Below are positions 7,376 through 27,890 of a stretch of DNA of 64,000 bases, piece by piece. Numbering within the stretch: the first letter of the stretch is position 1; every line of letters begins with the position of its first letter. The notes beneath the pieces are model-generated. The model made no database searches. It was not told where the DNA came from and worked only from the letters and a program-made list of their open reading frames with translations. Where the stretch lies: NCBI RefSeq assembly GCF_001565895.1, contig NZ_LSNE01000005.1, forward strand, positions 572,665-636,664, read 5' to 3'. Source of the DNA: Paraglaciecola hydrolytica. GTDB lineage: Bacteria > Pseudomonadota > Gammaproteobacteria > Enterobacterales > Alteromonadaceae. The translations under genes were made by a program, and so were the position numbers.

Positions 7376-7386
7376 GTTTTTTACAC

Positions 7387-7665: not shown

Positions 7666-7681
7666 TCATAACTCCAGAAAC

Positions 7682-8261: not shown

Positions 8262-8281
8262 GCTACCAAACCTTCATTTGC

Positions 8282-8765: not shown

Positions 8766-8771
8766 ACCAAC

Positions 8772-8980: not shown

Positions 8981-8998
8981 TTTTTCTGAGGAGCAAGG

Positions 8999-10225: not shown

Positions 10226-11254
10226 TTAAAACGGCAAAAAGTTAAACGAATAATCCAGCAGGGTTTGCGTAACATTTTGCTGGCCAAAGTTGATCAGACT
10301 AATGCGTGCTAACAAGTCTTTTTCTAACTCTGGTGAAGCGAGTTCACTGAAGACCAATTTAATCGCAGATACACTGCCGTCTGCTTCAATTTGCAGGTTA
10401 ACAGTGAGTTTGCCTTGCAGGCTGGCATCGTTGCGCAAAGCGCGGCGATAAATAGCGTAGATCCCGCCTTTATTGGCATCTAATACCTGGCGGATAGATT
10501 CGATGTTACGACTGCCGATTACTTCATCTTCTAATACGGTTTGTTGGGCAGCAAGTGAGGCAAGGCCTTCGGTGGGTGCGACATACTCGGTATTTTTTCG
10601 TTCGGCTAATTCACCCTTAGAGCCGGTATCTGTCGTGAGTTTGCTGGTGTCTAAACCGCCACTGCTGCCTGTGACTTTTTTACCAACAAACTTGCGCTGG
10701 GTTTCGTCACTGGCACCCCCACCTTTAATGCTGTCGGTATTGGCTAAATTATTGATGCTAGGATTAGTACGCATACTCGCCAAGTCATCTTGCAAGGCTA
10801 ATATGCCACTTTGTTTGGCTTTTATTTTAGCCTGCTCGGTTAACTCAGCCTGAGTGGGCACTTTAACCTTAGGCACTTCTGGCACTTTTACCGGCTCCTT
10901 GGGCACCACCACTTTAGGCGGCGGCTTTTTGATTAGTTCTGGTTTAGGCTCTATTTTAGGCAATTCGATTACCGGCACAGGTTTGGGCTCGATTATTGGT
11001 TTAGGTGGTTCGACTTTAACCGGCTTGAGCAAACGAGTTAACTGGGGGGGAATTTTTTCTTTTTCTGCCCTAGGTGTTTCGGGTAATTCTTGCCATTTCA
11101 CTAACAAGGCCAACATGAGAGTGAGCGCTAAAATAATGCCTACGATCAGCTTAAAACGTTGGTTTTCTTTTTCACTGGATGACCAAGGCAATACCGATAC
11201 ATAAGTGCTCACAGGTAAACCTTTTAACTGGGCAGTAGCAAGGGCAACATTCAT
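10226..11254 (-). CDS. TonB-like energy transducer, AgmX/PglI C-terminal domain
   Basis: A 342-residue inner-membrane-anchored protein. One membrane helix (about residues 33-50, LIVGIILALTLMLALLV) is followed by a long Pro/Lys/Glu-rich spacer (about 60-130: KVEPPKPIIEPKPVPVIELP and further KPxP repeats) that could span the periplasm. The C-terminal domain (about 245-342: IRQVLDANKGGIYAIYRRAL then GKLTVNLQIEADGSVSAIKL) is the AgmX/PglI type found in adventurous-gliding protein AgmX (GltG) of Myxococcus. It is last in the operon, overlapping exbD2 by 4 bp, so it should couple the proton channel to outer-membrane partners. Confidence 0.85.
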   Translation of the reverse strand: MNVALATAQLKGLPVSTYVSVLPWSSSEKENQRFKLIVGIILALTLMLALLVKWQELPETPRAEKEKIPPQLTRLLKPVKVEPPKPIIEPKPVPVIELPKIEPKPELIKKPPPKVVVPKEPVKVPEVPKVKVPTQAELTEQAKIKAKQSGILALQDDLASMRTNPSINNLANTDSIKGGGASDETQRKFVGKKVTGSSGGLDTSKLTTDTGSKGELAERKNTEYVAPTEGLASLAAQQTVLEDEVIGSRNIESIRQVLDANKGGIYAIYRRALRNDASLQGKLTVNLQIEADGSVSAIKLVFSELASPELEKDLLARISLINFGQQNVTQTLLDYSFNFLPF

Positions 11255-11796
11255 CCAGCCACCTCCGCGTCAGATGTGGTTTTGCTCTCTATGCTTTCTA
11301 CCGCCAAGGATATATTCGTAAAACCAGCCTGAGCACAGGTTTGCATAATGCGTTTTAGCAAAGCATAGGGAATATCTTTATCACCCATAATGGTAATGGC
11401 TTTATCGGCTGGCTCGTCTTCACTATTGGCTGATCCGCTCAGGGTAGTCACAGTAGCTTTGCCACTTTGATAAGCTAATTCTGCGACCAATTCAGGGATC
11501 AGCTCTTCATTCCGCGCCATGATACTCGCCACTGTGGCTAATTTACGCCCCTGTAATAACAACTCATTGTTATTCACCATCAAGACTAGAGTTTCTTTGG
11601 CGGCTTGTTTGGCAGTGGATTCGGGCAGAACTACGCTTTTACTGTTTTGTAATACTTGTACATCTGAAGCGTTGAGCATTAAAAAGAACACCAAAATAGT
11701 AAAGATATCCATCAAGGACACTAAGCTTAATTTAGAATCTTTGGCCATTCTGCGGTGATGGCGCTCCATGCGCATGGCTCTGGCGGATTTTTTCAT
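11251..11796 (-). CDS. ExbD/TolR-family protein 2 (membrane Asp present)
   Basis: A 181-residue protein. Start MKKSARAMRMERHHRRMAKD chosen at 11796, with GGAGAATAAG upstream; the longer frame overlaps the preceding gene. One membrane helix (LSLVSLMDIFTILVFFLMLN, about residues 23-42) contains D30, matching the proton-carrying aspartate of ExbD/TolR/MotB. The periplasmic part (about 140 residues) ends in a TolR-like domain (ITIMGDKDIPYALLKRIMQT). It starts 4 bp after exbD1, and the next gene overlaps it. Two unlike ExbD proteins with one ExbB also occur in the Agl-Glt motor (AglR with AglQ and AglS). Confidence 0.88.
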   Translation of the reverse strand: MKKSARAMRMERHHRRMAKDSKLSLVSLMDIFTILVFFLMLNASDVQVLQNSKSVVLPESTAKQAAKETLVLMVNNNELLLQGRKLATVASIMARNEELIPELVAELAYQSGKATVTTLSGSANSEDEPADKAITIMGDKDIPYALLKRIMQTCAQAGFTNISLAVESIESKTTSDAEVAG

Positions 11797-11800
11797 CAGC

Positions 11801-12376
11801 TTATTCTCCGTTGCCAATGGGTATAGACAACGCCGTTGCAGTGGTGGGCAGTTCTCGCTCATCCAGCGGCGCATCGCCTAAGGAGATTTCTGGAAACAAC
11901 TCAGCATCGACTACACTGCTAACCACAACATCAGGATAAGAACGGGTGCTGTCCATCAACGCCACTATTGCCTGATAAGAAATGTTTTCTTCTAATAACA
12001 AGGTGGCGGCTTTTTTGTCGATGTCCTGACTCAATAAGGTTTGTTTGATTTGTTTTAGAACGGTTTGCAAGCCCTGATAATCATAGGCTTGTTCGATTAG
12101 GGCTAAGTCTTTAACTAAATACCCTTGTGGATAATACACCGCAATATTATTGGCTCTAACCACAATTTCGAGACGTTGATCTTTAATTTCAATGGGCAAC
12201 TCAGAGGCTTCGCCCAATTCAGGCAGGGTGAGATCGAGCACGGTAATGCGCGAAAATACCATCATCATCAGTAAAACCGGCACTAGCACTATCATCAAAT
12301 TCATAAATGAGGTGATGTCGAGCTCTGCATCTGGCTTGGCTTTTTTAGCCCTGCGGCCTAGGCCGATTCTTGCCAT
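11801..12376 (-). CDS. ExbD/TolR-family protein 1 (membrane Asp replaced by Asn)
   Basis: A 191-residue protein starting MARIGLGRRAKKAKPDAELD, with one membrane helix (ITSFMNLMIVLVPVLLMMMV). Aligning the helix with the usual ExbD pattern (TPLVDVMLVL) puts N26 where the proton-carrying Asp belongs. The remainder (about residues 50-191) is a periplasmic TolR-like domain with a helical region and an extended tail. It precedes exbD2, which keeps the Asp. A hetero-oligomer in which only one subunit type is protonatable is therefore likely (inference). Spacing to the ExbB gene is 26 bp. Confidence 0.86.
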   Translation of the reverse strand: MARIGLGRRAKKAKPDAELDITSFMNLMIVLVPVLLMMMVFSRITVLDLTLPELGEASELPIEIKDQRLEIVVRANNIAVYYPQGYLVKDLALIEQAYDYQGLQTVLKQIKQTLLSQDIDKKAATLLLEENISYQAIVALMDSTRSYPDVVVSSVVDAELFPEISLGDAPLDERELPTTATALSIPIGNGE

Positions 12377-12402
12377 GTTAAAACTCCCAGCTAAACCAAA
12401 GC

Positions 12403-13068
12403 TTACTCAGCCCGATCAGAGCTACGTGAATGAGTGTTTAGTTCATTGCGCGCAATCAGTAAGTTAAGGCACTTCACACCAGCCATTTCCATGCTATCGA
12501 TAATTTCAGTGGTTTTGGTTTGCAAAATAGAATGAAAGGCCAGTAAAGGAATAGCGGCAATCAAACCAAAAGCGGTGGTATTCATCGCCACAGAGATACT
12601 TTGTGAGAGCAAACTGGCTTTTTCAGAAGGATCGGCACTTGCCACTGCCGAAAATGCCGCAATCAAACCAATAATGGTACCTAACAAACCTAACAAGGTA
12701 GAAATATTGGCTAAGGTTGCTAAATAGGCCGTGCGTTTTTCTAGCCGTGGCGTGGTTTCCATTAGGCCTTCTTCCATGGCGTATTCAATATCTTCACGAC
12801 GTTGGCTATGGTTTAAACGCGCCATACCTGCCCCAATAATGCGGCTGATTGGCGCAGTATCTGTGGTAGAAAAACTAAGTACTGCCGCATAGTTGTTTTT
12901 ATTTAGCAGCGGTTCCATGTGGGCAAACGCTTTTTTGTTTACCCGTTTGGCACTGCTTAAAAAAAAGTAACGCTCGATGGCAATCGCCAAACCCAGCGCC
13001 AGTACGATAGCAATGGGCAACATAAAAGCGCCACCTTCCTGAAAAAAACGCACTATTACGTCAAACAT
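12403..13068 (-). CDS. MotA/TolQ/ExbB-family proton channel protein
   Basis: A 221-residue inner-membrane protein. The start MFDVIVRFFQEGGAFMLPIA is used because AGGAG lies eight bases upstream; the GTG three codons earlier overlaps that site. Helix 1 is at about residues 13-33. Helices 2 and 3 contain ANISTLLGLLGTIIGLIAAF and SVAMNTTAFGLIAAIPLLAF, whose conserved threonines line the proton path in ExbB/TolQ. The cytoplasmic loop with ERYFFLSSAKRVNKKAF is typical. Forms the motor stator with the two ExbD proteins encoded next. Confidence 0.93.
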   Translation of the reverse strand: MFDVIVRFFQEGGAFMLPIAIVLALGLAIAIERYFFLSSAKRVNKKAFAHMEPLLNKNNYAAVLSFSTTDTAPISRIIGAGMARLNHSQRREDIEYAMEEGLMETTPRLEKRTAYLATLANISTLLGLLGTIIGLIAAFSAVASADPSEKASLLSQSISVAMNTTAFGLIAAIPLLAFHSILQTKTTEIIDSMEMAGVKCLNLLIARNELNTHSRSSDRAE

Positions 13069-13133
13069 GTCACTCACTCCTAATGTCGAATTTAATCACT
13101 ATACCTTGTTTACCCTGCGTATTAGGTATCAGC

Positions 13134-13445
13134 TTAAGGCTTTAGGCCTTGCTCTGGATAACTGACTTGCTCTGGGTCACTAACCTGCTCAGTCACAAAC
13201 TGCAACTGGCGGCTAAAATCGTCGCGCTCCAATGGCGTAAAACCTTTATTAATGCGCTCTACGATCTGGCTAGGCAAACTGTGTTTTACGCTTGCGGCCT
13301 GCCACGGCACTATGGTTAATACTTTGGGCTGTTCTTGATTGCCACGGATGGTGTCTTCGAGCTTAATTACTTTAGGCGCGGTTTGTTGGGCAAGACTCAC
13401 AAAACTCATCATACTGAATACTATCAATAAACCGAGCTTATTCAT
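13134..13445 (-). CDS. Small exported protein of the ExbBD-TPR operon
   Basis: A 103-residue protein with a signal peptide (MNKLGLLIVFSMMSFVSLAQ) followed by an ordinary soluble domain: APKVIKLEDTIRGNQEQPKV then LTIVPWQAASVKHSLPSQIV and ERINKGFTPLERDDFSRQLQ. No family recognised. It overlaps the TPR lipoprotein gene by 4 bp (ATGA), so translation is coupled. Small periplasmic partners of this kind accompany ExbBD-TPR machines; it might be the counterpart of a GltF-like component (speculative). The C-terminal EQVSDPEQVSYPEQ repeat is low complexity. Confidence 0.72.
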   Translation of the reverse strand: MNKLGLLIVFSMMSFVSLAQQTAPKVIKLEDTIRGNQEQPKVLTIVPWQAASVKHSLPSQIVERINKGFTPLERDDFSRQLQFVTEQVSDPEQVSYPEQGLKP

Positions 13446-14197
13446 TGGCTCTCTCCTTTAATACTGCCAGAGCTGGCATTGTATAACTGTTCTTGAATTT
13501 GCAGTTGCCGTTCAATATCAATGATCCAGCCTTTTACCTGCCTATTAGGCTCTGCCACTAAAGCTTGATAAAGCTGATAATCGTCCCGCGCGGCTTTTTT
13601 ATTACCCAAATATAAATCATGCAAAATGGCTCGATTTAATCGTGCCTCAGGAAAAGCCGGCCACGCGCTAAGCGCCAAATCATAGTGATATAAAGCGCGA
13701 CTAAAACGCCCTTGCTCACGCAATACCCTAGCCAATTGATTATGCGCATGGTAGTTGTCTGGATTGGCCTGAATCGCATTATTGAGATAAGCAATTTGCT
13801 TGTCGAGGCTTTGCTGTTTGGTCTGTGCATCTGTTGCCTGCGTTATAAAACTTGCCTGAATATGAGCCAGTTGTAACCACGAGCCAGACAAACGTGGATA
13901 TTGCTCGGCCAAACTCAAATACACACTTTGCGCCTCAGATAATTTGTTTTGTCTAATTAACAATAAACCCTGTTCAAAGCGTCTATTGACTGCCTCTGGG
14001 ATGACACTTGCCTGATTCAGATACCGATTAGGCAGGGCTTTTATAGTCTGAGCTTTATGTTGCCAAGGGTCGCCAGACATAGGCGCGGCAATAATGGCTT
14101 GCTTACTGACGATGTTTTGTTTATCTGCAACATTATTACTGCTACAAGCGTTGAGTAACACCACCAACCCTAAACAAGTTGACTTAATAAATGTCAT
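13442..14197 (-). CDS. TPR lipoprotein
   Basis: A 251-residue protein. The start MTFIKSTCLGLVVLLNACSS has a good TGGAGGCGG site and a lipobox (LNAC, Cys18). It contains about three TPR motifs at roughly residues 70-200 (RFEQGLLLIRQNKLSEAQSV; QANPDNYHAHNQLARVLREQ; FSRALYHYDLALSAWPAFPE). Outer-membrane TPR lipoproteins such as GltE hold trans-envelope complexes together, and this is probably the equivalent. Overlaps both neighbours (14 bp and 4 bp), so it is tightly co-translated. Confidence 0.85.
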   Translation of the reverse strand: MTFIKSTCLGLVVLLNACSSNNVADKQNIVSKQAIIAAPMSGDPWQHKAQTIKALPNRYLNQASVIPEAVNRRFEQGLLLIRQNKLSEAQSVYLSLAEQYPRLSGSWLQLAHIQASFITQATDAQTKQQSLDKQIAYLNNAIQANPDNYHAHNQLARVLREQGRFSRALYHYDLALSAWPAFPEARLNRAILHDLYLGNKKAARDDYQLYQALVAEPNRQVKGWIIDIERQLQIQEQLYNASSGSIKGESQ

Positions 14198-17168
14198 TCG
14201 CCGCCTCCACGCTTAATTCTACTTTGAGGTAACGGGCAGGCATCAAGGTTTTCAGAGCGTTAAAACTCTCTTGTACCCACTTATCATAAGTGCCCTGCCA
14301 TGCCCTTTTAGCATTAGTTTCGTGCAGAGTGATGGCTTGTTCTTCAAAGGGAAAGGCCTGCTCTTCTAACAATAATTCGTACTGTTCGAGCTCCAGTGCA
14401 TTGAGATCTTTAGGTTTACTGGATGCCATTAAATCTTTGGCGAGCTGATGGTAAATATCACCAAGATAAAAATTGGCCGCCGTATTAAATTCTTCGACCT
14501 TATAATCCAATACCTGATTAAAGGCTGCGAGGCTTTGCTCCAGCGCTTGTTTTTTACGCGCTAGACTGGTTTTTAAGGGCAAGCTCAGTTGAATATTTTT
14601 AAAACCAACTAAGCGATCCTGAGCAAATACCAACGAACTCATGGCCGCCAAATATCGTGAACGCTCGCTGCGTTCAATGGTGATGTCTTGTAGCGCTTGT
14701 TTATCCCCCTCAATTAATTTATTCAGCCAAAAACGGCGTTTTTCATCATCTTGGGCCTTTAGATAAATTTCACTGAGGATAAAACGCGCTTCGTTGGCCT
14801 CGGCCAAAGGTAAGGGATAACGATGAGCATAATCCCGATAAGAGCTTAAGGCTTGTTGGCTATTACCAACTTTATAATAATATTGCGCCGCCACATAAAG
14901 CGCCTGGCGGCCTTCTTCTGAGTCGGGATTTTTTTGCCACAAGGCCGTCAATTCACTGGCCGCTTGTTGCCAGCTTTCATTTTGTTGATAGGCCACTATC
15001 AATTTATCGCCAATATCCGCACTTAAAACATGTTGCTTAAAACGCTGGCGAAAGTCTTCGAGCAAATCGATGGCTTGTTGCCATTCTTGCATTTCCAACA
15101 AATATGTAGCGGCATCATATTGGGCTTTAATTCTAATACTGGTATCGGGTGTCTTGGCCAGCACCCGTAAAAAATCACTGACTGCCAGCGGTAAATAATT
15201 TTGCGCCACATGCAGTTCAGCTTGTTTATAAATGCTCGCTGCCAAACGTTCTTGTAAGTCGCTAAGGCGTGGATCATCAAGAGCCAGATTTACTAACAAG
15301 TCCTGATAAGAACGTTCAGCTGCTGCATAGTCTTCTATGGCAAACTGACTGTGAGCGATCACCAACTTAGCGGCATTTTGTTCGTTTAACGGGATAGTAA
15401 GCGGCCAGTTAAGCAAACGTTGCGCTTGTTCAATCGCTAAGGGATAACGTTGTAATTCAAATAATTGCTGCATGCTGATATACAGCACATCTTTGGCTCT
15501 GTCATCTGTGGCAAAGGTCGTTACAAAATTGTCCTGACTGATTAGCTGGAGATCTAACCATTGCTCCTGAGAAAAGGGACTATTGGCACCACCCTGCAAC
15601 TGAATTTGTCGGTAGGCCAAAATGGCTGCATAGGCCGCTTCGGCAGCTTTAGCATAAGCTTCATTGCCGTAGGCATAAGCTTCAAATACCTCGATAGCTT
15701 GCGCCTTATGTCCTGCGCTCGCATAGGCTTCACCTAAACTAAAACGCACCTCAGCCTGTTGTGGATCAAAAGGGAAAGTCTCAATAAATTCTTGATACCA
15801 AAGCGCGGCGGCTAAATAAGCCTGAGCCGCTTGTTTATTTTCTATTTGTTTATCCACTACTTGTTTATCCACTACTTGTTTATCCAAGAGTTGGCCTCGG
15901 CTATGCTCATAGTGAGCCAGCTCTAACAAATATTGATTTAAAAACGGTGCCACCAATTCTTGTTGTAATACACCCCACTGCGGCCAGTATTCACCACTCA
16001 TTCCATAACGTTCAACAAAACGTTGTTTAGCCGGTAATACCTCAGAGGGAAACTTACCAAGGATATACACATCAATCTCTTTCACCGCCAAAATCGGGGC
16101 CTGAAAATGTTGGGGATTAACCAAACTAAAACCTTGGTAAACCTTGGCACTGTCTTTAAAGCGCCCTTGATTGAGATAGAGCTGAGCTAGTTGGTCGTAC
16201 AATACATATTCGTAGTGACGTGAGCCGACTTGAGCAAAGTGAGTTTCGATACTATCGGCAGGTGATTCAAACTGACTTTGCTGATAGGAAAACAACAAGC
16301 TCATAATGCGCAGGGTATCGTTAACCAAACGTTTTTGCCCAAGGCCTAAGGCGTCGATTTGTGCCTGACTATCTACCTGAGCCAACATAGGCCTGGCAAT
16401 AATGTCACTGGGTAAACGGTCATCGAGCAATAAGGTAAAAGCCCCCAAAGCTGCGCTGTTTTGATTGTTTTTAAAATAACTCCAACCCAGCATATAAGCA
16501 GAGGTTGAGTAATAGGCACTTTGCGCGCCTTGTACAATTACCTGCTGATAAGCTTTGATCGCCGCAGCAAACTGGCCACGATTATATTCAATTTCACCTA
16601 AGCGAAAATACACCTCGGCCAGATAAGGATTTTGTGGAAAGGCCTTTAATAACTGCTGCAAACTTGAGTAACTTTGCTCTATCTCACCTTGTTGCTCATA
16701 GGCTTTGGCTAATTGATAAAGCACCTGCATATTGTCATCGTGAGTTGGGTGCTCTGCCAACAAGGCTTGATATTGCTGGATGGCTGAATCAAATACTTTT
16801 GCTGGAGCTTTGCTCTTTTGCTCAGTGCTTGCCTGTGTTTGTTGGCTTGGCACGATAACTTGACCACTTTCTTGTGCTTGCTCGGCCAGCACACCACTGA
16901 GATCAGCCAAACGATAACGTACTATTTGTTTGATTTCAGGCTCTTTAACCAGAGGCAACAACGCGGCATATTCATCGCGCAATTGCTGTAAATCTGGTTT
17001 TTTAAGCAACTGGTTATCTAAGCTCTGGGGTTTAAAATATTGCTCACCCAGTGTTTGGCTGGGAATTTTTTTGGGTTTTATCTCTGGCGCAGGTTGCTCA
17101 AACATACTGCAACTGCTCAGGCTCAATCCCAAAACTAAGCAACAAGAGACCTGTATAAACCTCTTCAT
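14184..17168 (-). CDS. Large TPR lipoprotein (994 aa)
   Basis: Starts MKRFIQVSCCLVLGLSLSSC, a signal peptide with lipobox LSSC. The rest is a long array of TPR/Sel1-like helical repeats, for example MQVLYQLAKAYEQQGEIEQS, AEVYFRLGEIEYNRGQFAAA, VRFSLGEAYASAGHKAQAIE and ALYVAAQYYYKVGNSQQALS. Such giant periplasmic TPR proteins (AgmU/GltD type) act as scaffolds in the Agl-Glt machinery. A 5-residue in-frame repeat (VVDKQ) occurs at about residues 430-447. It overlaps the upstream TPR gene by 4 bp and the downstream one by 14. Orthology with GltD is inferred from context, not alignment. Confidence 0.85.
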   Translation of the reverse strand: MKRFIQVSCCLVLGLSLSSCSMFEQPAPEIKPKKIPSQTLGEQYFKPQSLDNQLLKKPDLQQLRDEYAALLPLVKEPEIKQIVRYRLADLSGVLAEQAQESGQVIVPSQQTQASTEQKSKAPAKVFDSAIQQYQALLAEHPTHDDNMQVLYQLAKAYEQQGEIEQSYSSLQQLLKAFPQNPYLAEVYFRLGEIEYNRGQFAAAIKAYQQVIVQGAQSAYYSTSAYMLGWSYFKNNQNSAALGAFTLLLDDRLPSDIIARPMLAQVDSQAQIDALGLGQKRLVNDTLRIMSLLFSYQQSQFESPADSIETHFAQVGSRHYEYVLYDQLAQLYLNQGRFKDSAKVYQGFSLVNPQHFQAPILAVKEIDVYILGKFPSEVLPAKQRFVERYGMSGEYWPQWGVLQQELVAPFLNQYLLELAHYEHSRGQLLDKQVVDKQVVDKQIENKQAAQAYLAAALWYQEFIETFPFDPQQAEVRFSLGEAYASAGHKAQAIEVFEAYAYGNEAYAKAAEAAYAAILAYRQIQLQGGANSPFSQEQWLDLQLISQDNFVTTFATDDRAKDVLYISMQQLFELQRYPLAIEQAQRLLNWPLTIPLNEQNAAKLVIAHSQFAIEDYAAAERSYQDLLVNLALDDPRLSDLQERLAASIYKQAELHVAQNYLPLAVSDFLRVLAKTPDTSIRIKAQYDAATYLLEMQEWQQAIDLLEDFRQRFKQHVLSADIGDKLIVAYQQNESWQQAASELTALWQKNPDSEEGRQALYVAAQYYYKVGNSQQALSSYRDYAHRYPLPLAEANEARFILSEIYLKAQDDEKRRFWLNKLIEGDKQALQDITIERSERSRYLAAMSSLVFAQDRLVGFKNIQLSLPLKTSLARKKQALEQSLAAFNQVLDYKVEEFNTAANFYLGDIYHQLAKDLMASSKPKDLNALELEQYELLLEEQAFPFEEQAITLHETNAKRAWQGTYDKWVQESFNALKTLMPARYLKVELSVEAANDIY
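15846..15890 (-). repeat. 15-bp in-frame tandem repeat
   Basis: TTGTTTATCCACTAC occurs twice head to tail (15846-15875), followed by a third copy with changed last four bases (15876-15890). It encodes VVDKQ VVDKQ within the large TPR protein. Multiples of three, so copy-number change would not break the frame. Confidence 0.85.
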
Positions 17169-19297: not shown

Positions 19298-19298
19298 C

Positions 19299-19859
19299 TT
19301 AAAGTTCGATTACCTTAAACTCTGGTTGCTGATTGGCCGTTACGTCAACGATTTGCAACTCTAACATCTTGGCATCAGCGGATTTAGTAAAGGTAAAACT
19401 AGTGGCTCTTTTATATTCACGCTCGTGGGGGCCTTTACCCAAAAAAAATGCCGTGAGCACATGCTCGCCTTGGGCAATATTGGCCAGATGTAATTTTTGC
19501 ACGCCGCCCTTAACCAAAGCCGCTTGCTGTTTTTCGGTATAAAGGTAATGAGTAACACTGACATCATCGAGCTTAAGTTCAACCGAATCGAGATTAAAAT
19601 AGTTGCCCACGTCCATGGATAAATACACCACTAACTGGGTAGAAGAGGGAAACAATAAATCCTCTTCGAGCACAAACAAATCACGATTAAGGGCTATGAC
19701 GTCTTTTTTAAGTTGCTGGAGTTTCTCGGCCAAGGTTTGTTCATCGTTAGTCTGCTGAGCCTGACTAGCAGCACCAAACACTAGAGTCATCGCCAAGAAA
19801 ACTATTTTTATTGATGCCAAAAACTGCGATTTGAAACACTTAACATTGATCATAAACAT
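19299..19859 (-). CDS. Exported accessory protein, one bp from the TPR gene
   Basis: A 186-residue protein with an N-terminal signal peptide (IKIVFLAMTLVFGAASQAQQ). A short coiled coil follows (LAEKLQQLKKDVIALNRDLF), then a beta-rich domain: TQLVVYLSMDVGNYFNLDSV, KLDDVSVTHYLYTEKQQAAL and GEHVLTAFFLGKGPHEREYK. The beta part resembles an Ig-like or PEGA-type fold. No family name could be assigned. Spacing to the downstream gene is 1 bp, implying an obligate partner of the 710-residue TPR protein. Confidence 0.72.
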   Translation of the reverse strand: MFMINVKCFKSQFLASIKIVFLAMTLVFGAASQAQQTNDEQTLAEKLQQLKKDVIALNRDLFVLEEDLLFPSSTQLVVYLSMDVGNYFNLDSVELKLDDVSVTHYLYTEKQQAALVKGGVQKLHLANIAQGEHVLTAFFLGKGPHEREYKRATSFTFTKSADAKMLELQIVDVTANQQPEFKVIEL

Positions 19860-19879
19860 GCCAAATTATTACCTTAGAA

Positions 19880-21025
19880 TTAATAAAATAACGATAGGTA
19901 CAAACGAGTGATATTGGCCGAAAACTCATAGAGAGGTTCATCGCCCACTGGCGCATCAGCTAATACGTTGCGAAAATCATCATAATCAAACTGTACATGA
20001 TCGAAATCCAAATTTACCGTACTTTTTTTCAGCCAGTTAGTCGCCGAAAAACGAAACTCGTAAGTCACACTAACACCCAAGGATACATTGCTGAACGTAC
20101 TCATTTCTTTATCACGGGCGCGAAAGTTAAATTCTTCACTGCGCTGATACAAGTCTTGATAAAAATCGGCTTTATCTTGGCTATAAAAACGGCTGCGCAC
20201 TTCAACTATCCACTCATCACTAAAAGTATGGATATAACCCACTTTATAAGTGGTGGCATCTATGCCCCAAGTATCGGAAAACAGCTTGGCCTCAGCATAG
20301 ATAGAAGCCCGATATGGCAAATAATAATTGGCGCTTAGTGCCGTAGCATTACTGGTACGGGTATTAGGGTAAACTTCTGTCTCATAACGATACCCTTTTT
20401 CACTGCTAGCATCGAGAAAACGCACAGCACGATAGGGATTATTCAGATAACCCTCATCGGCAATATTCTCAAAACTCAGTCCCATGATCATATTTTTAGT
20501 GATCACCTGAGTCAGGCCTAAACGATAATTTTGCCGTTCTGCCTGTTCTAAAAAGCTGTCATCCCCCCGTTTGCCCACGTCATCATTGCCGCGGGAATAA
20601 CCCAAACTCAAGGTGGTTAAATCACCAAAAAAATCCTGACTCAAACCAAATGACAAGTTTTTTGCGGCAAAGTCATTTTCAGAACTGCTGGTGTAACTCA
20701 CATTCATCAGGGTTTTATTACGTACATAGTCCAGGCCTACACTGTGTTCGGTGCGCTCTTCGGCATAAGGGCTGGCGGTGGCGAGCACATCTATAGACGC
20801 GCCCGATATAGTATCAACGTAGTAGTTAGCGCTAAGCGAAAAGCTATTACCTATTTGTTTTCTGAGCAAAATTGAGGGGCCATCAATAGACATGCCACCC
20901 CCCTGATAAGAGTGATACATGGCATCAGCCCGTTCTTGGGGTAATACTGCAGCATCAAGTGAGCTCAGCCCTACTAACAAACACAGCAAGCCAAAACATA
21001 AGTGCTTAAGTTTAGTTGCAACCAC
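19880..21025 (-). CDS. DUF3570-family outer-membrane beta-barrel protein
   Basis: A 381-residue protein if translation begins at the GTG at 21025, which overlaps the DUF4266 gene by 14 bp and gives a signal peptide (KLKHLCFGLLCLLVGLSSLD, cleaved near AAVLP). The longer frame to 21121 runs antisense-free through the DUF4266 gene and is less likely. The mature protein has many amphipathic strands, such as SANYYVDTISGASIDVLATA, NLSFGLSQDFFGDLTTLSLG and LSANYYLPYRASIYAEAKLF, ending in phenylalanine-tyrosine (LYLSLFY). DUF3570 proteins are recalled in gene sets with DUF4266 and TlpA-like thioredoxins. Transported substrate unknown. Confidence 0.84.
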   Translation of the reverse strand: MVATKLKHLCFGLLCLLVGLSSLDAAVLPQERADAMYHSYQGGGMSIDGPSILLRKQIGNSFSLSANYYVDTISGASIDVLATASPYAEERTEHSVGLDYVRNKTLMNVSYTSSSENDFAAKNLSFGLSQDFFGDLTTLSLGYSRGNDDVGKRGDDSFLEQAERQNYRLGLTQVITKNMIMGLSFENIADEGYLNNPYRAVRFLDASSEKGYRYETEVYPNTRTSNATALSANYYLPYRASIYAEAKLFSDTWGIDATTYKVGYIHTFSDEWIVEVRSRFYSQDKADFYQDLYQRSEEFNFRARDKEMSTFSNVSLGVSVTYEFRFSATNWLKKSTVNLDFDHVQFDYDDFRNVLADAPVGDEPLYEFSANITRLYLSLFY

Positions 21026-21245
21026 AACCGCCCCCTGCTCCGCCGTCTGCCCCTCGAGATCCTTCACGGGCACCAAAGGCGTGATGAGTATAAGCGCTCG
21101 CCACTGGATTGCGGTTAACACTCATAATGGGATCAGCTAGATTTTCCCGCTCATAGGGTTGCACCCAAGGCTCTATGCTGGCGCAGGCAATATTTAGACT
21201 ACATACACTGAGGATTAACAACTGACGTTTTAGTGCTCTTACCAT
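21012..21245 (-). CDS. DUF4266-family small lipoprotein
   Basis: A 77-residue protein. The start MVRALKRQLLILSVCSLNIA (21245) has CGGAGATT upstream; lipobox LNIAC. The DUF4266 signature is visible: WVQPYERENLADPIM, NPVASAYTHHAFGAREGSRG and a Gly/Cys-rich tail (GGAGGGCGCN). The His-His and terminal C-G-C could bind a metal or cofactor (inference). DUF4266 proteins sit next to DUF3570 and thioredoxin genes in many genomes, as here; function unknown. Confidence 0.86.
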   Translation of the reverse strand: MVRALKRQLLILSVCSLNIACASIEPWVQPYERENLADPIMSVNRNPVASAYTHHAFGAREGSRGADGGAGGGCGCN

Positions 21246-21273
21246 GTCTAATCTCCGTTTTGACTTAGTTAGC

Positions 21274-21783
21274 TTATTCACGTAACAAGCTTTTGACTAC
21301 TTGTTCGTACTTAGCCACGTCACCCTTTTTATAACCTCTATGCAATAAACGTTGTTTACCATCACGATCAACTATCACTGTGGTAGGCATAGCACTGACA
21401 TCATAGCGTTTGCTGACCACAGCCTCGTTATCAAACAATACCGGAAAACTCACCGCAATGTCATTTAACAATACATCGGCTTTAGCCGAGTCTTTGTCTA
21501 CATTAATAGCCAATATGGTAAAACCCAGATCAGCATAGTTTTGTTGCAATTCTTCGAGTAGAGGTAATTCTTCACGACATGGTGTGCACCATGAAGCCCA
21601 AAAATTAATCAATACCACATTCCCTATTTGCTCTTGTAAACGCACATTACCGTGGTTTTTACTGGCTAGGGTAAAATCGACTGCGTTTTGTTTAGTGTCT
21701 GCTGCTTGACTAGGTAATTGGCACAGTAGCAACAACGCCGCAGCAAAACCAAGTGTTTTAATTGTTGAATAATTTGTTTTCAT
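21274..21783 (-). CDS. TlpA/ResA-family thioredoxin
   Basis: A 169-residue periplasmic thioredoxin. The start MKTNYSTIKTLGFAAALLLL (21783) gives a signal peptide ending PSQAAD. The redox motif WASWCTPCREELPLL (about residues 69-83) has the CxPC of TlpA/ResA proteins; SAMPTTVIVDRDG contains the cis-proline loop. Such proteins reduce or isomerise disulfides, including apocytochrome c haem-binding cysteines. Its presence in an operon with di-haem and Cys-containing proteins (HzsA-like, DUF4266) suggests it services those cysteines. Confidence 0.93.
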   Translation of the reverse strand: MKTNYSTIKTLGFAAALLLLCQLPSQAADTKQNAVDFTLASKNHGNVRLQEQIGNVVLINFWASWCTPCREELPLLEELQQNYADLGFTILAINVDKDSAKADVLLNDIAVSFPVLFDNEAVVSKRYDVSAMPTTVIVDRDGKQRLLHRGYKKGDVAKYEQVVKSLLRE

Positions 21784-21829
21784 ATCATGCTCTCTTACTG
21801 CTGTGATCAAGTACCAACCACAATGCTAA

Positions 21830-22459
21830 CTAAAAAAAGAAGGTCGCACCTAAACCATATTGGATGTTGTGGGTGGTTTTTTCTTTGCCAATTAATTCGC
21901 TATTAAACAGGTGATCTTTGAGTTCAAGGCGCAGTGAAAAATAGTCAGTTAGCAAGACTTTATAACCGACTCCTAGGCTTAAGGTGAAATGCTCGTCACC
22001 AGCAAACTCCGTACTACCGGCACTGAGTACAAAAAAAGTGGCTGAATTTATGACCCAGCTATCAGTCACAAAGGTTTCGCCATTCAGGCTGTAACCCAAC
22101 CCTAAACTGTAGTAACGATACTGACGTTCGTCGTCAGTTAATAATGGAGCACCGCCACTAAGCAACTCAAAACTGGTTTGCCCGGATTCAGCTTGTTCAT
22201 AAGCCGCTTCAACAAAAAAGTTTTCACTAACATGGTAAGCCAAACGCGCGCCTGCAATCATGCTGCTAGAAAAATCTTCAATACTGATCACACCAAGAGT
22301 TAAACCTATCTCGACGTTTTCAGTGTCGATAGTAGCTTCGCTGATTTCACGGCGTTGTGGTTCAGGTTCAATCACACTCGTCTGCGCGTATGCCAACCAT
22401 GGGCTGAGCAATACAACCCACATCGAGCTTAGAAAAATATCGCGAAACCTAATTTCCAT
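21830..22459 (-). CDS. Outer-membrane beta-barrel protein
   Basis: A 209-residue protein starting MEIRFRDIFLSSMWVVLLSP, signal peptide cleaved after AYAQ. The ATG at 22459 has GAGGAATT nine bases upstream and overlaps the preceding gene by 31 bp; an ATG at 22423 is the alternative. The mature protein shows alternating strands (ENVEIGLTLGVISIEDFSSS; ARLAYHVSENFFVEAAYEQA; FTLSLGVGYKVLLTDYFSLR) and ends YGLGATFFF, the aromatic C-terminus typical of BamA-inserted barrels. Small 8-strand OmpA/OmpW-like size. Possible counterpart of GltA/GltB barrels (inference). Confidence 0.82.
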   Translation of the reverse strand: MEIRFRDIFLSSMWVVLLSPWLAYAQTSVIEPEPQRREISEATIDTENVEIGLTLGVISIEDFSSSMIAGARLAYHVSENFFVEAAYEQAESGQTSFELLSGGAPLLTDDERQYRYYSLGLGYSLNGETFVTDSWVINSATFFVLSAGSTEFAGDEHFTLSLGVGYKVLLTDYFSLRLELKDHLFNSELIGKEKTTHNIQYGLGATFFF

Positions 22460-23250
22460 TGTGCCAATTCCTCGTTTTCATCCCGGTCGGTTTTGACCAG
22501 CAAACTGTTGTATTCCAACTTCACTAAAAAATGTCGTGTCAGGTAATAACGTAGGCCTAAACCAGCCGATAAAACATTGGCGCTGCGTGCCTCATCACCA
22601 CTTTGCACTAAACTGCCACGGGGTTTAGTACGGATTTTACCTGCACCAAACACCACATAAGGGGCCACTTGCCACTCTGGAAAAGCGGTATGACTTATAG
22701 TAAACATCGCCAACTGGTTTTCTGCATAGCTACCTACCGCCTGAGTCAGATTAATCCCCAGACTGATATTTTCAGTGGCTATCCAATCGGCCATTACCGT
22801 AAGACTTGGTACGCCATCAAAGGAGCCTGCCATGGTGCCTATTTCAAACTGCCGAGTGGCAAAATCTTCGAAAGAGCCATCCGCTAATAACACGGGCTCA
22901 CCATTGGCGTTTAAGGTTAGATGCAAATCATCCTGACTGATCCAACCTTGTTGTCCTTTGGCGGTTTGCACTTTAAACCACGACGTACGGCGTTTAAGCA
23001 CACTTAACCATTCATCTTTGGCTGCCACATATATCACGGGATACGCACCCGCCGGGCCAGAGCGCATATCCACATAGGGCTGTTTAACTTGTACCTGTGC
23101 CTGCTCCTGTAAATAGTCTTGTGCTGTACTTTGGCTAGCCCAAAAACACATGCCCACCAGGTACAGCGCCATCACAGAACCCGCAGCCCGGCATGCTTTT
23201 TTCAGCCTTTTAATGTCGGTAATAGTCATTGTATTGGTATACACAGTCAT
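22429..23250 (-). CDS. SH3-domain outer-membrane beta-barrel protein
   Basis: A 273-residue protein with start at the ATG overlapping the upstream stop (TGATG). After a signal peptide (GSVMALYLVGMCFWASQSTA) there is a bacterial SH3 domain, about residues 54-115 (VKQPYVDMRSGPAGAYPVIY, then WLSVLKRRTSWFKVQTAKGQ and GWISQDDLHL). SH3b domains usually bind peptidoglycan or protein ligands. The C-terminal half is a barrel (EIGTMAGSFDGVPSLTVMAD; EWQVAPYVVFGAGKIRTKPR) ending KLGFAIFF. It could tie the outer membrane to the wall or to the TPR scaffold. Confidence 0.82.
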   Translation of the reverse strand: MTVYTNTMTITDIKRLKKACRAAGSVMALYLVGMCFWASQSTAQDYLQEQAQVQVKQPYVDMRSGPAGAYPVIYVAAKDEWLSVLKRRTSWFKVQTAKGQQGWISQDDLHLTLNANGEPVLLADGSFEDFATRQFEIGTMAGSFDGVPSLTVMADWIATENISLGINLTQAVGSYAENQLAMFTISHTAFPEWQVAPYVVFGAGKIRTKPRGSLVQSGDEARSANVLSAGLGLRYYLTRHFLVKLEYNSLLVKTDRDENEELAQWKLGFAIFF

Positions 23251-25943
23251 CAATTTAGGGGTGCCACAAAAGGATCGTTGTAATATTGTCCACCTATATC
23301 TAACCATTCAGCAATAAGCTTTAGCTCAACAGGGGATAACCAAGCATGGTGGCTGTTGCCAACATTAAACACTTGGAAAAACCTATTGCTTGCACGGGCG
23401 CCGTTAACCGACATGCTATTACTTACCGGCACGGTACGTAATACCGGAATAGGCTGACCTTCGCTATCAAGTAGCAATTCGCCATCTTCATCCACGGCAA
23501 ATACGGGATCACCGTTGGCATCGGTGACAGCTATCAAACGTTCAACCAAGATACCTTCCAGCACTTCCTGCTCATTGTCGCCAAACAGCAATTCACGATA
23601 ACTCGTTATATGGTCGGGGTTGTCACTTGAGTCGCTGCCACGTAAATCGAGTTGAGCCGCTGGCACTTGAGCTAAACCAAGAGCATCCTCAATGTTATGA
23701 CAAGAGGTACAAGTATGATCTTGTAATACCGTCAAACCATCTTCTGCCAGAGTTTGCCTGTTTAAATCAAACATAGGTTGGATGTGTAAAGGATAGTTAA
23801 TCTGAATGCGGCACAAGGATGTCCAACTCAGGGCACAAGCTGGGCTAACAGGAATGGCTGTCTGCATATCGCCATAAGCTAAATTAAAAGGATCCGCTGG
23901 GGTTTGACGGGCGGGATCAGTCCAAATATCACTAAAATGGATGTCAGCCGAGGGATAGTTAACGCCAACAATACGCCCAGCGGTTTGCGCCATGGTATCG
24001 CCCAAATCAGCAAACAAGGCCGGATTAGTATTAGGGAAAGGTAAACCCGTATTAGCCGCGCCCTGATTGATACTTTGAACCTCTGCGTCTTTACGCCCAT
24101 GAGCAGCTGTGCTTGCCTGAGTATGGCAACCATTGCAGCTACGTATTTCACCGGGCGCAAATTGCAGCCAATTTTGATGCCTTTCACTTATACGTTTACC
24201 TTGGGCATCCACCACACTAAAGGCTAAAGGCACATTAGCTGGTACGTTGAACAAGGCCGAGCCATCAGGCTCAATGGGGCTATAACCCACTATCTCACGC
24301 ATGAGTTGCCCAGTGCTGCGACCAAAGGCCGAATTATTAAAATCACGTACTTCATCATCGGGTTGCGACACTGCTTTAACGATACGTAAAAAACGAGCAG
24401 GCCTTTGTATAACTGGGGTCTGAGTTGGATCGGCTAATATCACAATACCTTGGGGCGACAAATCCTCACCGGCAAAATCATAAACACTACGAATATGTAT
24501 TTGAGCAAGTTTGTCCAACGCCAGTTCAGGGTCAAAATTGGGACTTTGTTGACTATCGGCAGGAAAGGCTCTGGCTTGCATTGCCACGACTTCACTATAC
24601 AGCTGACCTTCTTGTGGCACTGCTACCACCAACTGAGTATTTTGAATTGGATCAAACATCCACACACCATAGAGTATGGGCGCAGCTTGAATGCCCTGTG
24701 TCGCAAGCAATTCTGCTGTGCAAGGTAGGATCTTTGCGGTGGCATCTTCAGGGACTTCGGGATCAAATACCCGACATTGACTCCAGCTAAATAGCATTCT
24801 ATTACTGCCATCCCACAGTGGATATACCGCAGCAAACCTGCCACCAGCGGACAAGCTACCATCGATAGTTACATTGTCGAATAGAGCAACTTGTTCAGCA
24901 TTACCGCCTTGCCCCGTAATGGGCGCCGTTCGATCAATAAACTGCCGAATATCGATACTGACATAGTCACCGCCCCACAATTCTGAGCTCATTGGGCGCA
25001 GCGCGCTGAGGATTTTACCATCGGGTAATTCACGTAACTGGGTGTATTGAAGGGCCTCTGTAGAACGTTCGTTGTTATGACTATGGCGCCCATACATCAA
25101 CTCCAACTCACTGCCATCCCCATTCATTTGGTACAAATTAAAACTATTGTTGTTGCCCGCATTATCCCAACGGCTAAACAAAATTTTGCCGTTACTTAAT
25201 ACCGTAGGATCAAGGTCGTGACTTTGATTAAAGGAGATTTGTTGAATATCACTGCCATCAGGATTGATCACATGTAGTACTGAGGCTATTTGTGAGCGGC
25301 GTTCATCCAAAGCTTGGTATTGGGGTTTGTTTTCATCCAGCAGTATGGCTTGATTAGCTTGTTGACGGGTTGAGCTAAACACGATGCGCCCATCGGGTAA
25401 AAACACCGGAGCCGTATCCTGGCCTTCTTCGGCCAAGGCATTATTAGTGATAATGCGCTGCAAAGTATCGCTGGGTAGATGGTAAGTCCACAAATTCCAG
25501 CTAGGTTGTTCGTCTTCATCGGCATCTGCAATTTCGGGCGCACGCAGAGCAAAAACCAGAGTATTACCGTCATAAGAAACTTCGAGATCTTTTACATCAT
25601 AAGCAGCTAACGGATTATCTAGCGTGGCAGCCGCGATTTGTTCGGCACTAAAAAACGCCCTATCACTGATATTACGTTCTATTGCCGAAGCAGAGGCACG
25701 AGCTTTGAGATACAGCGCAGCGCCTGGTACAAAATCATTTAACCTGCGTAAGTCTTGGCCTATTAACTCGCCATCTGCATCAATAGGAATGGTACGTTTA
25801 ATAAAGACTATAGGCACATCCACCACCACGGGATCAGGCTCTTGATCATTAGGCAGTATTTTGTCACCACCACAAGCAAACAAAACCAAACACATGAGCA
25901 GCGTAAGGCTTAATTTAATCACTTGCAGGAGACATTTGAACAT
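23250..25943 (-). CDS. Di-haem HzsA-like lipoprotein, first gene of the operon
   Basis: An 897-residue lipoprotein (lipobox LFAC, Cys23). The middle has PD40/TolB-like beta-propeller blades (APVFLPDGRIVFSSTR; DPTVLSNGKILFSRWDN; NLYQMNGDGSELELMYG; LPDGKILSALRPMS), as in hydrazine synthase alpha subunit-like proteins. Two c-type haem sites follow: CNGCH at about residue 600 (EIRSCNGCHTQAS) and CTSCH at about 745 (DHTCTSCHNIEDAL). The organism has no sign of hydrazine chemistry, so the name denotes fold only; a periplasmic or surface redox or binding role is likely. The Fur-box-like site is about 70 bp upstream. Confidence 0.75.
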   Translation of the reverse strand: MFKCLLQVIKLSLTLLMCLVLFACGGDKILPNDQEPDPVVVDVPIVFIKRTIPIDADGELIGQDLRRLNDFVPGAALYLKARASASAIERNISDRAFFSAEQIAAATLDNPLAAYDVKDLEVSYDGNTLVFALRAPEIADADEDEQPSWNLWTYHLPSDTLQRIITNNALAEEGQDTAPVFLPDGRIVFSSTRQQANQAILLDENKPQYQALDERRSQIASVLHVINPDGSDIQQISFNQSHDLDPTVLSNGKILFSRWDNAGNNNSFNLYQMNGDGSELELMYGRHSHNNERSTEALQYTQLRELPDGKILSALRPMSSELWGGDYVSIDIRQFIDRTAPITGQGGNAEQVALFDNVTIDGSLSAGGRFAAVYPLWDGSNRMLFSWSQCRVFDPEVPEDATAKILPCTAELLATQGIQAAPILYGVWMFDPIQNTQLVVAVPQEGQLYSEVVAMQARAFPADSQQSPNFDPELALDKLAQIHIRSVYDFAGEDLSPQGIVILADPTQTPVIQRPARFLRIVKAVSQPDDEVRDFNNSAFGRSTGQLMREIVGYSPIEPDGSALFNVPANVPLAFSVVDAQGKRISERHQNWLQFAPGEIRSCNGCHTQASTAAHGRKDAEVQSINQGAANTGLPFPNTNPALFADLGDTMAQTAGRIVGVNYPSADIHFSDIWTDPARQTPADPFNLAYGDMQTAIPVSPACALSWTSLCRIQINYPLHIQPMFDLNRQTLAEDGLTVLQDHTCTSCHNIEDALGLAQVPAAQLDLRGSDSSDNPDHITSYRELLFGDNEQEVLEGILVERLIAVTDANGDPVFAVDEDGELLLDSEGQPIPVLRTVPVSNSMSVNGARASNRFFQVFNVGNSHHAWLSPVELKLIAEWLDIGGQYYNDPFVAPLN

Positions 25944-26287: not shown

Positions 26288-26671
26288 AGCTTAGCTTGTT
26301 ACCGATCAATGACAGAGCTCAATAGGCTTAACGACCTGACTTTTTGAAAGTTTATATGCTATTTCAAACATAGTTCGTCTCTTATTCGCTACGTTCCAAG
26401 CAACCATTAAGACCAAACGTCAGTCCCTACCCTGTTCAGCCCCTTTAAGGTCTGAACTCAAATTTATGGTCTAAAATGTGCTGACGCATTCTTTGATGTG
26501 CAAAAGTTGCCTTTTGCAAATCAGAATTGGCCATTAACAACTTATCTTCCTTGGTTTAATCACCTACAAAGGTATAGGGATTAAGACCCTATAAGCTCAA
26601 GTCATATTTACCCATAGGGAAATTAAGCCTCTAATGAAGCCGTGTTAACCTATCCGCACAGGAGTTCTGCT

Positions 26672-27889
26672 TTGAAACAGCTTGTCAGACACATTAATTC
26701 ACTCAGTTGCGCAATACTCTGCAGCCTAGTGTTATGCACTCAGTCTGTGGCAGGCTCCCGTGAACAAGCCAAACGTATTCATGACAGGTTAGCCGGTGTG
26801 CCACCTTCAGCCGCAGTATTAGATCTGATGGCAAGTAGTATTGAGCAGGGTGATGTCACCCAAGCCGCTTATCTGGCGATGGATAATGCCTCATTTTATA
26901 ACATCACCTTAAAAAACTGGGTCACGCCTTGGACCAATGAAGAAGCCGATGTTTTTGCGACTTTAAATGACTATAGCGCCACTGTCATTGGCATCATTCG
27001 TGACGATGTGGATTTTCGAACCATCCTCTCGGGCGATGTACTCTATATTGCTGATAACAGCCTCAACCTGCCTGCTTACAGCCCTAACAACAACGCCCAT
27101 TATCAAGCCTTAGAAGATCAACATGCTGATCTCAAAGCCGTATTACAAACCACCAGCCAATCAACTTTATTAGGTATTCCCAGCGACGCTACAGCTGGCA
27201 TACTCACCACCCGCGCTGCCGCCAAAGCCTTTTTTAAAGACGGTACTAACCGCGCCATGTTTCGATTTACCCTGATTAACCATCTGTGTACTGATCTTGA
27301 AGGCCTTAAAGATACTAGCCGTGCACCGGATCGCATTCGTCAAGATATTAGCCGCAGCCCAGGTGGTGATAGTCGTATCTTTAATAACTCCTGTATTGGT
27401 TGTCATTCGGGCATGGATCCACTGGCTCAAGCCTTTGCTTATTATAATTATCAATACGATGTAGATAGTGACCCTGAGGGTGAAAACGGTCGTCTGCAAT
27501 ACAATGCCAGTGGTCAAATAGACCCACAAACCGGCACTCGAGTGCAAACCAAATATTTGATCAACGGCAATAACTTCCCCTTTGGTTTTATCACCGACAA
27601 TGACAACTGGAGTAATTACTGGCGCGCGGGTTTAAATAAAAACCTTGGTTGGGATGAAAGTTTGCCTGCTCAAGGCAGCGGCGCTAAATCCATGGGTTGG
27701 GAGCTGGCTAACAGTCAAAAATTTGCCCAGTGCCAAGTAACTAAAGTATTCGAAAACGTGTGTTTACGCAGCCCGCAAAATGCCCAAGACCGAGCGGAGA
27801 TTACCAACATGACCGGCAATTTTCGGCAAAATGGCTATCAGCTAAAACAAGTGTTTGCTGATACCGCCAATTATTGTAAGGGAGAATAA
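26672..27889 (+). CDS. Mono-haem c-type protein, DUF1588/PSD1-like
   Basis: A 405-residue exported protein. A TTG start at 26672 is proposed because GGAG lies seven bases upstream and the resulting N-terminus (KQLVRHINSLSCAILCSLVL) is a signal peptide ending VAGS; a GTG at 26642 is the alternative. One c-type haem site, CIGCH, is at about residue 240 within RIFNNSCIGCHSGMDPLAQA. The surroundings (RAMFRFTLINHLC before, MDP plus AYYNYQYD after) recall the DUF1588/DUF1585 region of planctomycete PSD cytochromes. Next gene starts 1 bp after its stop. Role probably redox. Confidence 0.72.
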   Translation: MKQLVRHINSLSCAILCSLVLCTQSVAGSREQAKRIHDRLAGVPPSAAVLDLMASSIEQGDVTQAAYLAMDNASFYNITLKNWVTPWTNEEADVFATLNDYSATVIGIIRDDVDFRTILSGDVLYIADNSLNLPAYSPNNNAHYQALEDQHADLKAVLQTTSQSTLLGIPSDATAGILTTRAAAKAFFKDGTNRAMFRFTLINHLCTDLEGLKDTSRAPDRIRQDISRSPGGDSRIFNNSCIGCHSGMDPLAQAFAYYNYQYDVDSDPEGENGRLQYNASGQIDPQTGTRVQTKYLINGNNFPFGFITDNDNWSNYWRAGLNKNLGWDESLPAQGSGAKSMGWELANSQKFAQCQVTKVFENVCLRSPQNAQDRAEITNMTGNFRQNGYQLKQVFADTANYCKGE

Positions 27890-27890
27890 A

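Follow-up and report, generated by a model that had tools for sequence, protein, structure and literature searches.

Why should the genes of a motor resembling the Agl-Glt machinery of Myxococcus be packed into one operon with a set of predicted outer-membrane redox proteins? The question is raised by a stretch of 64,000 nucleotides from Paraglaciecola hydrolytica (contig NZ_LSNE01000005.1, positions 572,665 to 636,664), hereafter called the window, in which 15 open reading frames (ORFs) follow one another on the minus strand between 10226 and 25943, with intergenic gaps of -110 to +56 bases. Nine of these genes (g07-g15, numbered as in Table 1) form an Agl-Glt-like motor core and six (g01-g06) an outer-membrane redox module, and three further genes (n1-n3) diverge from g01. 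A first-pass annotation of the window had described a single packed 15-gene operon in which redox genes stand together with motor genes; the positions and gaps of the ORFs agree with the first part of this description, and the second is borne out by the co-occurrence of the two halves in other genomes. We conclude that the two halves are very probably one functional system.

Co-inheritance of the motor core and the redox module

The same 309 gammaproteobacterial genomes were searched with a profile of g09, a large tetratricopeptide repeat (TPR) lipoprotein of the core, and with a profile of the operon-type DUF3570 (A3), the latter being a stand-in for the whole module. A core was counted at a g09 match above 430 bits and an operon-type DUF3570 at an A3 match above 250 bits, weaker matches (ordinary TPR proteins and other DUF3570s) having been removed before the count. 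The core is present in 80 of the 309 genomes and the operon-type DUF3570 in 51, from 29 families, and all of these 51 genomes carry the core; among the 229 core-less genomes, none has an operon-type DUF3570 over the cut-off. Lower-scoring DUF3570s behave differently, since 33 of the 84 DUF3570-positive genomes have only such copies, 16 with the core and 17 without it, and the canonical-like copies of these 17 serve as an internal control. A second draw across the phylum, comprising 348 genomes of which some were also in the first, gave 15 with the core and 10 with the DUF3570, again with the core in 10 of 10, and the 15 members of the host family in this draw have either both (six) or neither (nine).

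In 41 of the 51 genomes a single contig carries the two markers no more than 30 kb apart, and in 28 of these no more than 8 kb apart, so that the motor and redox genes, which the first-pass annotation had allowed might never be neighbours in related genomes, are commonly found together. In the other 10 genomes they are on different contigs, as would be expected if the halves were unrelated, a pair of operons that chance has made neighbours or that are merely co-regulated; this explanation is strongly disfavoured and hardly credible to us, because the co-occurrence holds without exception despite varied layouts (single operon, same or opposite strand, ApbE preceding or following the core).

Conservation of gene order tells the same story at closer range. 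A scan of 295 genomes of the host order found a g08 match in 31 and a DUF4266 match in 68, and 35 stretches of up to 20 kb were compared, 14 of them chosen for a DUF4266 close to g08 and the rest as contrast. All 15 genes recur in the same order and strand in 13 uncut loci (L066-L069, L071-L079), giving the conservation among relatives that had been proposed as a check, and one more locus (L093) is consistent with this order up to the point where the region ends. Because selection on DUF4266 near g08 favours both halves, these 13 loci show recurrence and not frequency, and it is therefore the co-occurrence count that serves as the unbiased test. The other stretches of the order hold the nine-gene core with different flanks, or canonical DUF3570 clusters. 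In two of them, from another family of the order (L084, 15957-20000; L100, 3-1979), a PD40 protein resembling g01 comes after the core; it has PKD repeats but no HZS_alpha match, and is perhaps a different plug-in module.

A wider view was obtained by scanning named genomes with the alignment of g14, the best 80 of 539 confirmed candidates being retained. The titles of these genomes are nearly all Gammaproteobacteria or Proteobacteria, with two metagenome-assembled genomes titled Rhodospirillaceae, and the nearest are Paraglaciecola. Those of the best 80 that hold g10, g12-g15 and a g09 start beyond base 3000 make up 61 core loci, near-copies such as two Thiodiazotropha pairs included, and ApbE, DUF4266 or DUF3570 is in view in 53 of them. 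In 48 genomes drawn from the best-80 core set a DUF3570 of any type was looked for, and one was found in 45. Among 35 DUF3570 places fetched from core-bearing genomes, g01, g02, g03, g05 and g06 stand in order at 33, accompanied by TlpA in 26 of the 33, and the remaining two places were cut. Only two of the 33 are joined to the core, and the module standing apart from it is an operon of its own. Eight module places were seen without TlpA, and in all eight the core locus of the same genome has one. In one genome (G305; L130, L215), which has both core and module, an opposite-strand ApbE lies by the module and not by the core, and n1-n3 are missing beside g01.

Protein families, structure models and the flavin link

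Within the core, g12 matches MotA_ExbB in Pfam (103.2 bits, over the cut-off) and finds ExbB and TolQ as its relatives in the PDB, and g13 and g14 both exceed the cut-off of ExbD (41.7 and 61.5 bits). The ExbD channel position is Asp in 119 of 119 homologues of g14 and Asn in 116 of 120 homologues of g13, and the motor axle may be a g13/g14 heterodimer with a single proton site. The transducer g15 carries the AgmX/PglI C-terminal domain (NF033768, 57.6 bits, cut-off 40); no forkhead-associated (FHA) domain and no match to any Pfam family were found for it, and a PDB sequence search with it returned nothing usable. Against the full-length GltG model (NF033760) it reaches 38.8 bits, with only the tail aligned and a cut-off of 650, and g10 reaches 27 bits against the GltE model, whose cut-off is 225; the 16 families matched by 25 members of the g09 family include no Glt model. 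Three exported TPR proteins stand in the cluster, g08-g10 all being TPR by Pfam, and Cys20 of g09 is almost invariant in alignment A1. In three loci (L119, L140, L164) g08 and g09 are apparently one fused ORF of about 1400-1500 codons. No significant family was found for g07 in the Pfam search, and a homologue of it is present in 60 of the 61 core loci; its model (predicted local distance difference test, pLDDT, 87) combines a helix with a transthyretin-like sandwich, a widespread arrangement (fold-comparison Z of about 8-9). The small protein g11 is detected at E < 1e-15 in 41 of the 61 loci and more weakly in the others.

The first-pass annotation had stated that the motor-TPR-barrel part follows the Agl-Glt system. 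This stands for the ExbB protein, the two ExbD proteins and the transducer domain, all over their cut-offs; the GltE and GltG models are far from being reached, and the three TPR proteins are candidate counterparts of GltC, GltD and GltE. Sequence comparison supports placing the motor-TPR-transducer part in the Agl-Glt core type. Such core clusters are described in Gammaproteobacteria, where their function is given as unknown and where one extra gene is absent from Myxococcales, according to the accessible part of the source (PMC3169522); that extra gene may be g07 or g11. Resemblance to this core is also the argument for gliding or another form of surface motility, an explanation that we hold to be highly improbable, given that no role in gliding is known for the redox module. 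The core itself is stated, in the same accessible part, to be insufficient for gliding (PMC3169522), and with this statement and the redox partners in mind gliding was set aside.

The redox module has conserved residues of catalytic type. The di-haem protein g01 matches HZS_alpha (62.2 bits, over the cut-off) together with PD40 in Pfam, its CXXCH motifs lie at residues 603 and 745, and two such motifs are kept in 45 of the 48 homologues over 800 amino acids. Its middle piece, haem motif included, matches hydrazine synthase alpha (5c2v) at E 4.8e-6, and two further weak pieces match the same structure in the same order. The thioredoxin g04 belongs to AhpC-TSA (84 bits, cut-off 26), with a W..C..C-type motif in 78 of 82 homologues, and g05 to DUF4266 (78.2 bits, cut-off 27), whose terminal GCGC is kept in all 72 of the homologues aligned, the canonical copies among them. 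The match of g06 to DUF3570 is 144.4 bits (cut-off 25). The first-pass annotation was right in naming an ExbB channel, two ExbD proteins, TPR proteins, DUF3570, DUF4266, a thioredoxin and a di-haem lipoprotein. Its "two or three" outer-membrane barrels become three, because g06 is predicted to be a barrel in addition to g03, at 29.9 bits above the 28.7 cut-off of OMP_b-brl, and g02, which has an SH3_3 domain and reaches 25.7 bits, below that cut-off.

The g06 model (pLDDT 83, predicted template modelling score 0.76) has 16 long strands, with both published positions for flavin attachment, the acceptor sites, in the loop after strand 3 and a short helix within this loop at 110-115; by strand count the loop would face outward. 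A PDB sequence search with g06 gave nothing usable, and the solved folds nearest to the model are outer-membrane barrels such as PelB, FadL and AlgE (template modelling score, TM, of about 0.4-0.5), matches which support a predicted barrel and point to no function. The best of these, the exopolysaccharide exporter PelB, could be taken along with the LamG domain of n2 as a sign of an Nfs-like polymer machine, in which the motor would pull or export a surface polysaccharide, the haem and flavin proteins would oxidise or cut it, and n2 would bind the glycan. A precedent is the Agl-Nfs machine of Myxococcus, by which, as reported in the accessible text, a carbohydrate polymer is rotated on the surface of the spore (PMC3858216). 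As a fold match, however, PelB is weak (TM of about 0.5) and lies amid many dissimilar barrels, and among the family matches of the 18 genes there is no polysaccharide-synthesis family, so that we consider a polymer machine improbable.

A link to flavin comes from ApbE, a gene of which lies less than 1.3 kb from the core in 35 of the 61 core loci, on the same strand in 34 of the 35. The host genome has three ApbEs, all outside the window operon. The copy on contig C15 reaches 432 bits against a profile of four core-adjacent ApbEs and falls within the core-adjacent clade of a FastTree tree, the other two scoring 166 and 130; one of these is the partner of a canonical TlpA-DUF4266-DUF3570 cluster elsewhere in the host genome (contig C3; L086, 8210-10229). 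Flavinylation of a DUF3570 by its ApbE has been demonstrated for one protein, which has intact motifs, in the accessible text of that report (PMC8238504). Of the two [ST]GA[ST] acceptor motifs, g06 has the first only: site 1 is SGAS with Ser109, and site 2 is a degenerate TASP with Ser117. The Ser at each of the two published acceptor positions is invariant in 66 of 66 operon-type DUF3570s.

Against the reading of the two halves as one flavin-dependent system several observations have to be set. On the side of co-inheritance, the operon-type DUF3570 is missing from 29 of the 80 genomes with a core, the co-occurrence probability (p of about 7e-38) was computed regardless of kinship, and the zero among core-less genomes hinges on the cut-off, two of them having weaker matches of 125 (precisely 124.9) and 123 bits. 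A DUF3570 of any type was not found in three of the 48 core genomes searched for it, and in eight of the 61 core loci no flavin partner is in view, the module being located elsewhere in the same genome for three of the eight (L130, L140, L160). Seven genomes have TlpA in both halves, and TlpA is therefore not strictly the property of either; and in L070, a locus cut by the end of its contig, no g10 is detectable between g09 and g11. On the side of flavinylation, Pfam finds no ApbE among the 15 genes of the window operon, the site 1 motif is complete in only 24 of the 66 operon-type DUF3570s, the Gly being replaced by Ser or Ala in the other 42, and almost all of the 66 have a degenerate site 2. 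Furthermore, the site 1 motif is kept at 3 of the 30 module places for which ApbE accompanies the core locus (L184-L218) and in 21 of 32 sequences from loci of the 15-gene type (L066-L079, L104-L126), where no ApbE stands beside the operon. The motif had been expected to be retained where the core is linked to ApbE, and with the opposite pattern seen it was rejected as a clean test. The published case concerns a protein with intact motifs, so that the SSAS forms are putative substrates of flavinylation, and no substitute flavinylation motif is conserved in the core proteins of the 61 loci, the one recurrent instance being in g12 (7 of 61, closely related rows).

Since 29 of the 80 cores come without the module marker, the core works also without the module and has other uses. 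Two or more core copies occur in at least 23 genomes, a figure from a g09 search that scored two candidates per genome and possibly missed extra cores. In a FastTree tree of g09 (108 rows) the loci with a flavin partner lie on both sides of the midpoint root, and 14 label changes are counted versus 28.4 in shuffles, the loci labelled N including cut contigs. Twenty module-less core loci (16 from marker-less genomes and four second cores of genomes with the marker) showed no shared partner by our own profiles, their flanks standing without a family search; in the flanks of 12 of them, 23 other ORFs were compared by length and first residues. A TlpA-like gene lies near a module-less core in a few loci (L238, and weakly in L225 and L227).

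A core of more general use would suit an explanation in which it is a surface-assembly or secretion machine, the redox lipoproteins or other cargo being moved through or onto the outer membrane and not forming a driven path. That several module products are lipoprotein-like and that three barrels are linked would suit it as well. It leaves unexplained by itself why all 51 module markers occur with the core, and why ApbE, a modifier of a redox part, stands beside the core in 35 of 61 loci, and we regard it as rather unlikely.

Layout of the locus and its neighbours

Table 1. Genes of the operon and of the divergent trio in the window (coordinates are window positions; sources of the assignments in brackets).
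Gene	Position	Strand	Description
g01	23250..25943	-	di-haem lipoprotein, 897 aa; PD40 propeller and HZS_alpha middle domain (Pfam)
g02	22429..23307	-	292 aa; SH3 domain (SH3_3) and probable outer-membrane barrel (Pfam)
g03	21830..22459	-	outer-membrane barrel, 209 aa (Pfam)
g04	21274..21810	-	TlpA/ResA-type thioredoxin, 178 aa (Pfam, NCBIfam)
g05	21012..21281	-	DUF4266, small exported protein with GCGCN end (Pfam)
g06	19880..21121	-	operon-type DUF3570, predicted 16-strand barrel (Pfam, structure model)
g07	19299..19859	-	186 aa; exported helix and transthyretin-like sandwich, head of the core (model)
g08	17165..19297	-	exported TPR protein, 710 aa (Pfam)
g09	14184..17168	-	large TPR lipoprotein, 994 aa (Pfam)
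g10	13442..14197	-	TPR lipoprotein, lipobox by eye, 251 aa (Pfam)
g11	13134..13445	-	small exported protein, 103 aa; no significant family
g12	12403..13077	-	ExbB/TolQ-type proton channel, 224 aa (Pfam)
g13	11801..12376	-	ExbD-type, Asn at the channel Asp position (Pfam)
g14	11251..11796	-	ExbD-type with the channel Asp (Pfam); likely start Met27 of the 11251-11874 ORF
g15	10226..11254	-	TonB-like transducer, 342 aa, AgmX/PglI C-terminal domain (NF033768)
n1	26642..27889	+	415 aa, one CXXCH, weak DUF1585/PSD2 tail; divergent from g01
n2	27855..30365	+	lipoprotein (by eye), 836 aa, two CXXCH, LamG (Laminin_G_3) domain (Pfam)
n3	30412..32016	+	exported, 534 aa, twin-arginine translocation (Tat)-type signal by eye (TRREFI), no Pfam family

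Two annotated starts are probably too early: that of g14, whose homologues in the alignment begin at Met27 (about 11796), and that of g06, whose first 38 or so codons overlap g05. A promoter scan gave fewer sites than are found in shuffled sequence.

The unit exceeds the 15 genes first reported, because the divergent trio stays with g01 across loci. In the window 698 bases separate g01 from n1. Where 1.5 kb or more can be seen next to g01, n1 diverges from it in 45 of 48 places; for n2, with 3.5 kb or more visible, the figure is 30 of 33. The n3 homologues are present in 25 fetched loci, many loci ending short of its position. A homologue of n2 has a weak PSCyt1 match, below the gathering cut-off. 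The full set in Paraglaciecola hydrolytica is hence 18 genes, which span about 10226-32016 and encode five CXXCH motifs.

On its other side the operon is adjoined by a chromosomal integron (755-9970), consisting of an integrase gene (8999-9970; TIGR02249, 469 bits, cut-off 265) and a row of small ORFs, mostly on the minus strand, at 755-8963. A single attC-like site was detected (4819-4889), and next to it a cassette-like ORF of 134 amino acids (4894-5298) is made up mostly of repeats of a RGLQGSDGRMV-type unit.

Proposed mechanism and comparison with known systems

How might a motor of this kind serve a redox module? In the mechanism that we propose, the ExbB ring of g12 would surround the ExbD pair g13/g14, of which only g14 keeps the proton-carrying Asp, and this motor would push or turn the transducer g15 against the periplasmic scaffolds g07-g11, two of them (g09 and g10) lipoproteins. 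Electrons would pass from the thiol of TlpA (g04) to the C-X-C of DUF4266 (g05) and on to a flavin mononucleotide (FMN) attached to the DUF3570 barrel (g06) by the dedicated ApbE encoded elsewhere in the genome, and from this FMN to the c-type haems that g01, n1 and n2 carry on or close to the surface. The products would form a physical complex, and the motor would mechanically gate or assemble the barrel complex, allowing electrons or a redox-active substrate to pass through the outer membrane. For this mechanism as a whole, with a motor driven by the proton-motive force (PMF) gating or assembling a thiol-flavin-haem path in the outer membrane, we put the chances at about even. As a guess at function, envelope transport or surface electron transfer is the better one, in keeping with the suggestion of the first-pass annotation, and gliding is unlikely.

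If the motor acts on the redox part, ExbB-ExbD-type motors would have a use beyond transport and movement, and the co-inheritance in any case supplies each half with a partner. Tentatively, and with more doubt than confidence, the locus may represent a new class of envelope machine in which an Agl-type PMF motor powers or gates electron transfer via a flavinylated 16-strand barrel to surface haems. Such a machine could, with similar reserve, comprise about 19 dedicated genes (the 18 together with ApbE), its marker being found in 29 families of the 309-genome sample. More speculatively, action of the motor on the redox part, if real, may hint at the job that the core had prior to its recruitment for gliding.

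Four known systems can be set beside the locus. The Agl-Glt/Nfs core of Myxococcus (AglRQS, GltC, GltD, GltE and GltG) likewise brings together an ExbB protein, two ExbD proteins, a transducer with an AgmX/PglI tail and exported TPR proteins in one cluster, whereas in the window no FHA domain was found in g15, the GltE and GltG equivalog models are far from their cut-offs, and the locus is tied to a flavin-haem-thiol module and to ApbE, neither of which appears in the accessible part of the published account (PMC3169522). Our search found no literature linking ApbE to gliding or to Agl-Glt, supplements and subscription papers lying outside it; ApbE and the words "gliding motility" occur together in one paper, on marine Flavobacteriaceae, as far as its accessible text goes (PMC4164334).

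The second system is that of the ApbE/DUF3570 flavinylation clusters, in which, by the accessible account, genes for DUF3570, a thioredoxin and DUF4266 stand together (PMC8238504). The window shares with these clusters the DUF3570, the DUF4266 with a C-X-C tail and the thioredoxin, in company with ApbE. It differs in that its operon-type DUF3570 scores 144 bits on the Pfam model versus 544 for the canonical copy, and in having degenerate motifs, an ApbE subfamily of its own, haem proteins and a motor driven by the PMF. ExbB, TPR, gliding and AgmX are all absent from that report's main text (PMC8238504).

The last two comparisons concern the haem proteins. The HZS_alpha domain of g01 exceeds its cut-off and the middle piece aligns with hydrazine synthase alpha (5c2v), whereas the equivalog model NF052339 is matched at 39.7 bits with a cut-off of 800, by which g01 is ruled out as a hydrazine synthase. 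The divergent trio recalls planctomycete-type cytochromes (PSCyt1, PSD2/DUF1585) through the weak PSD2 tail of n1, the weak PSCyt1 of the n2 homologue and the LamG domain of n2; it departs from them in that all these matches save LamG are below the gathering cut-off and n3 belongs to no family.

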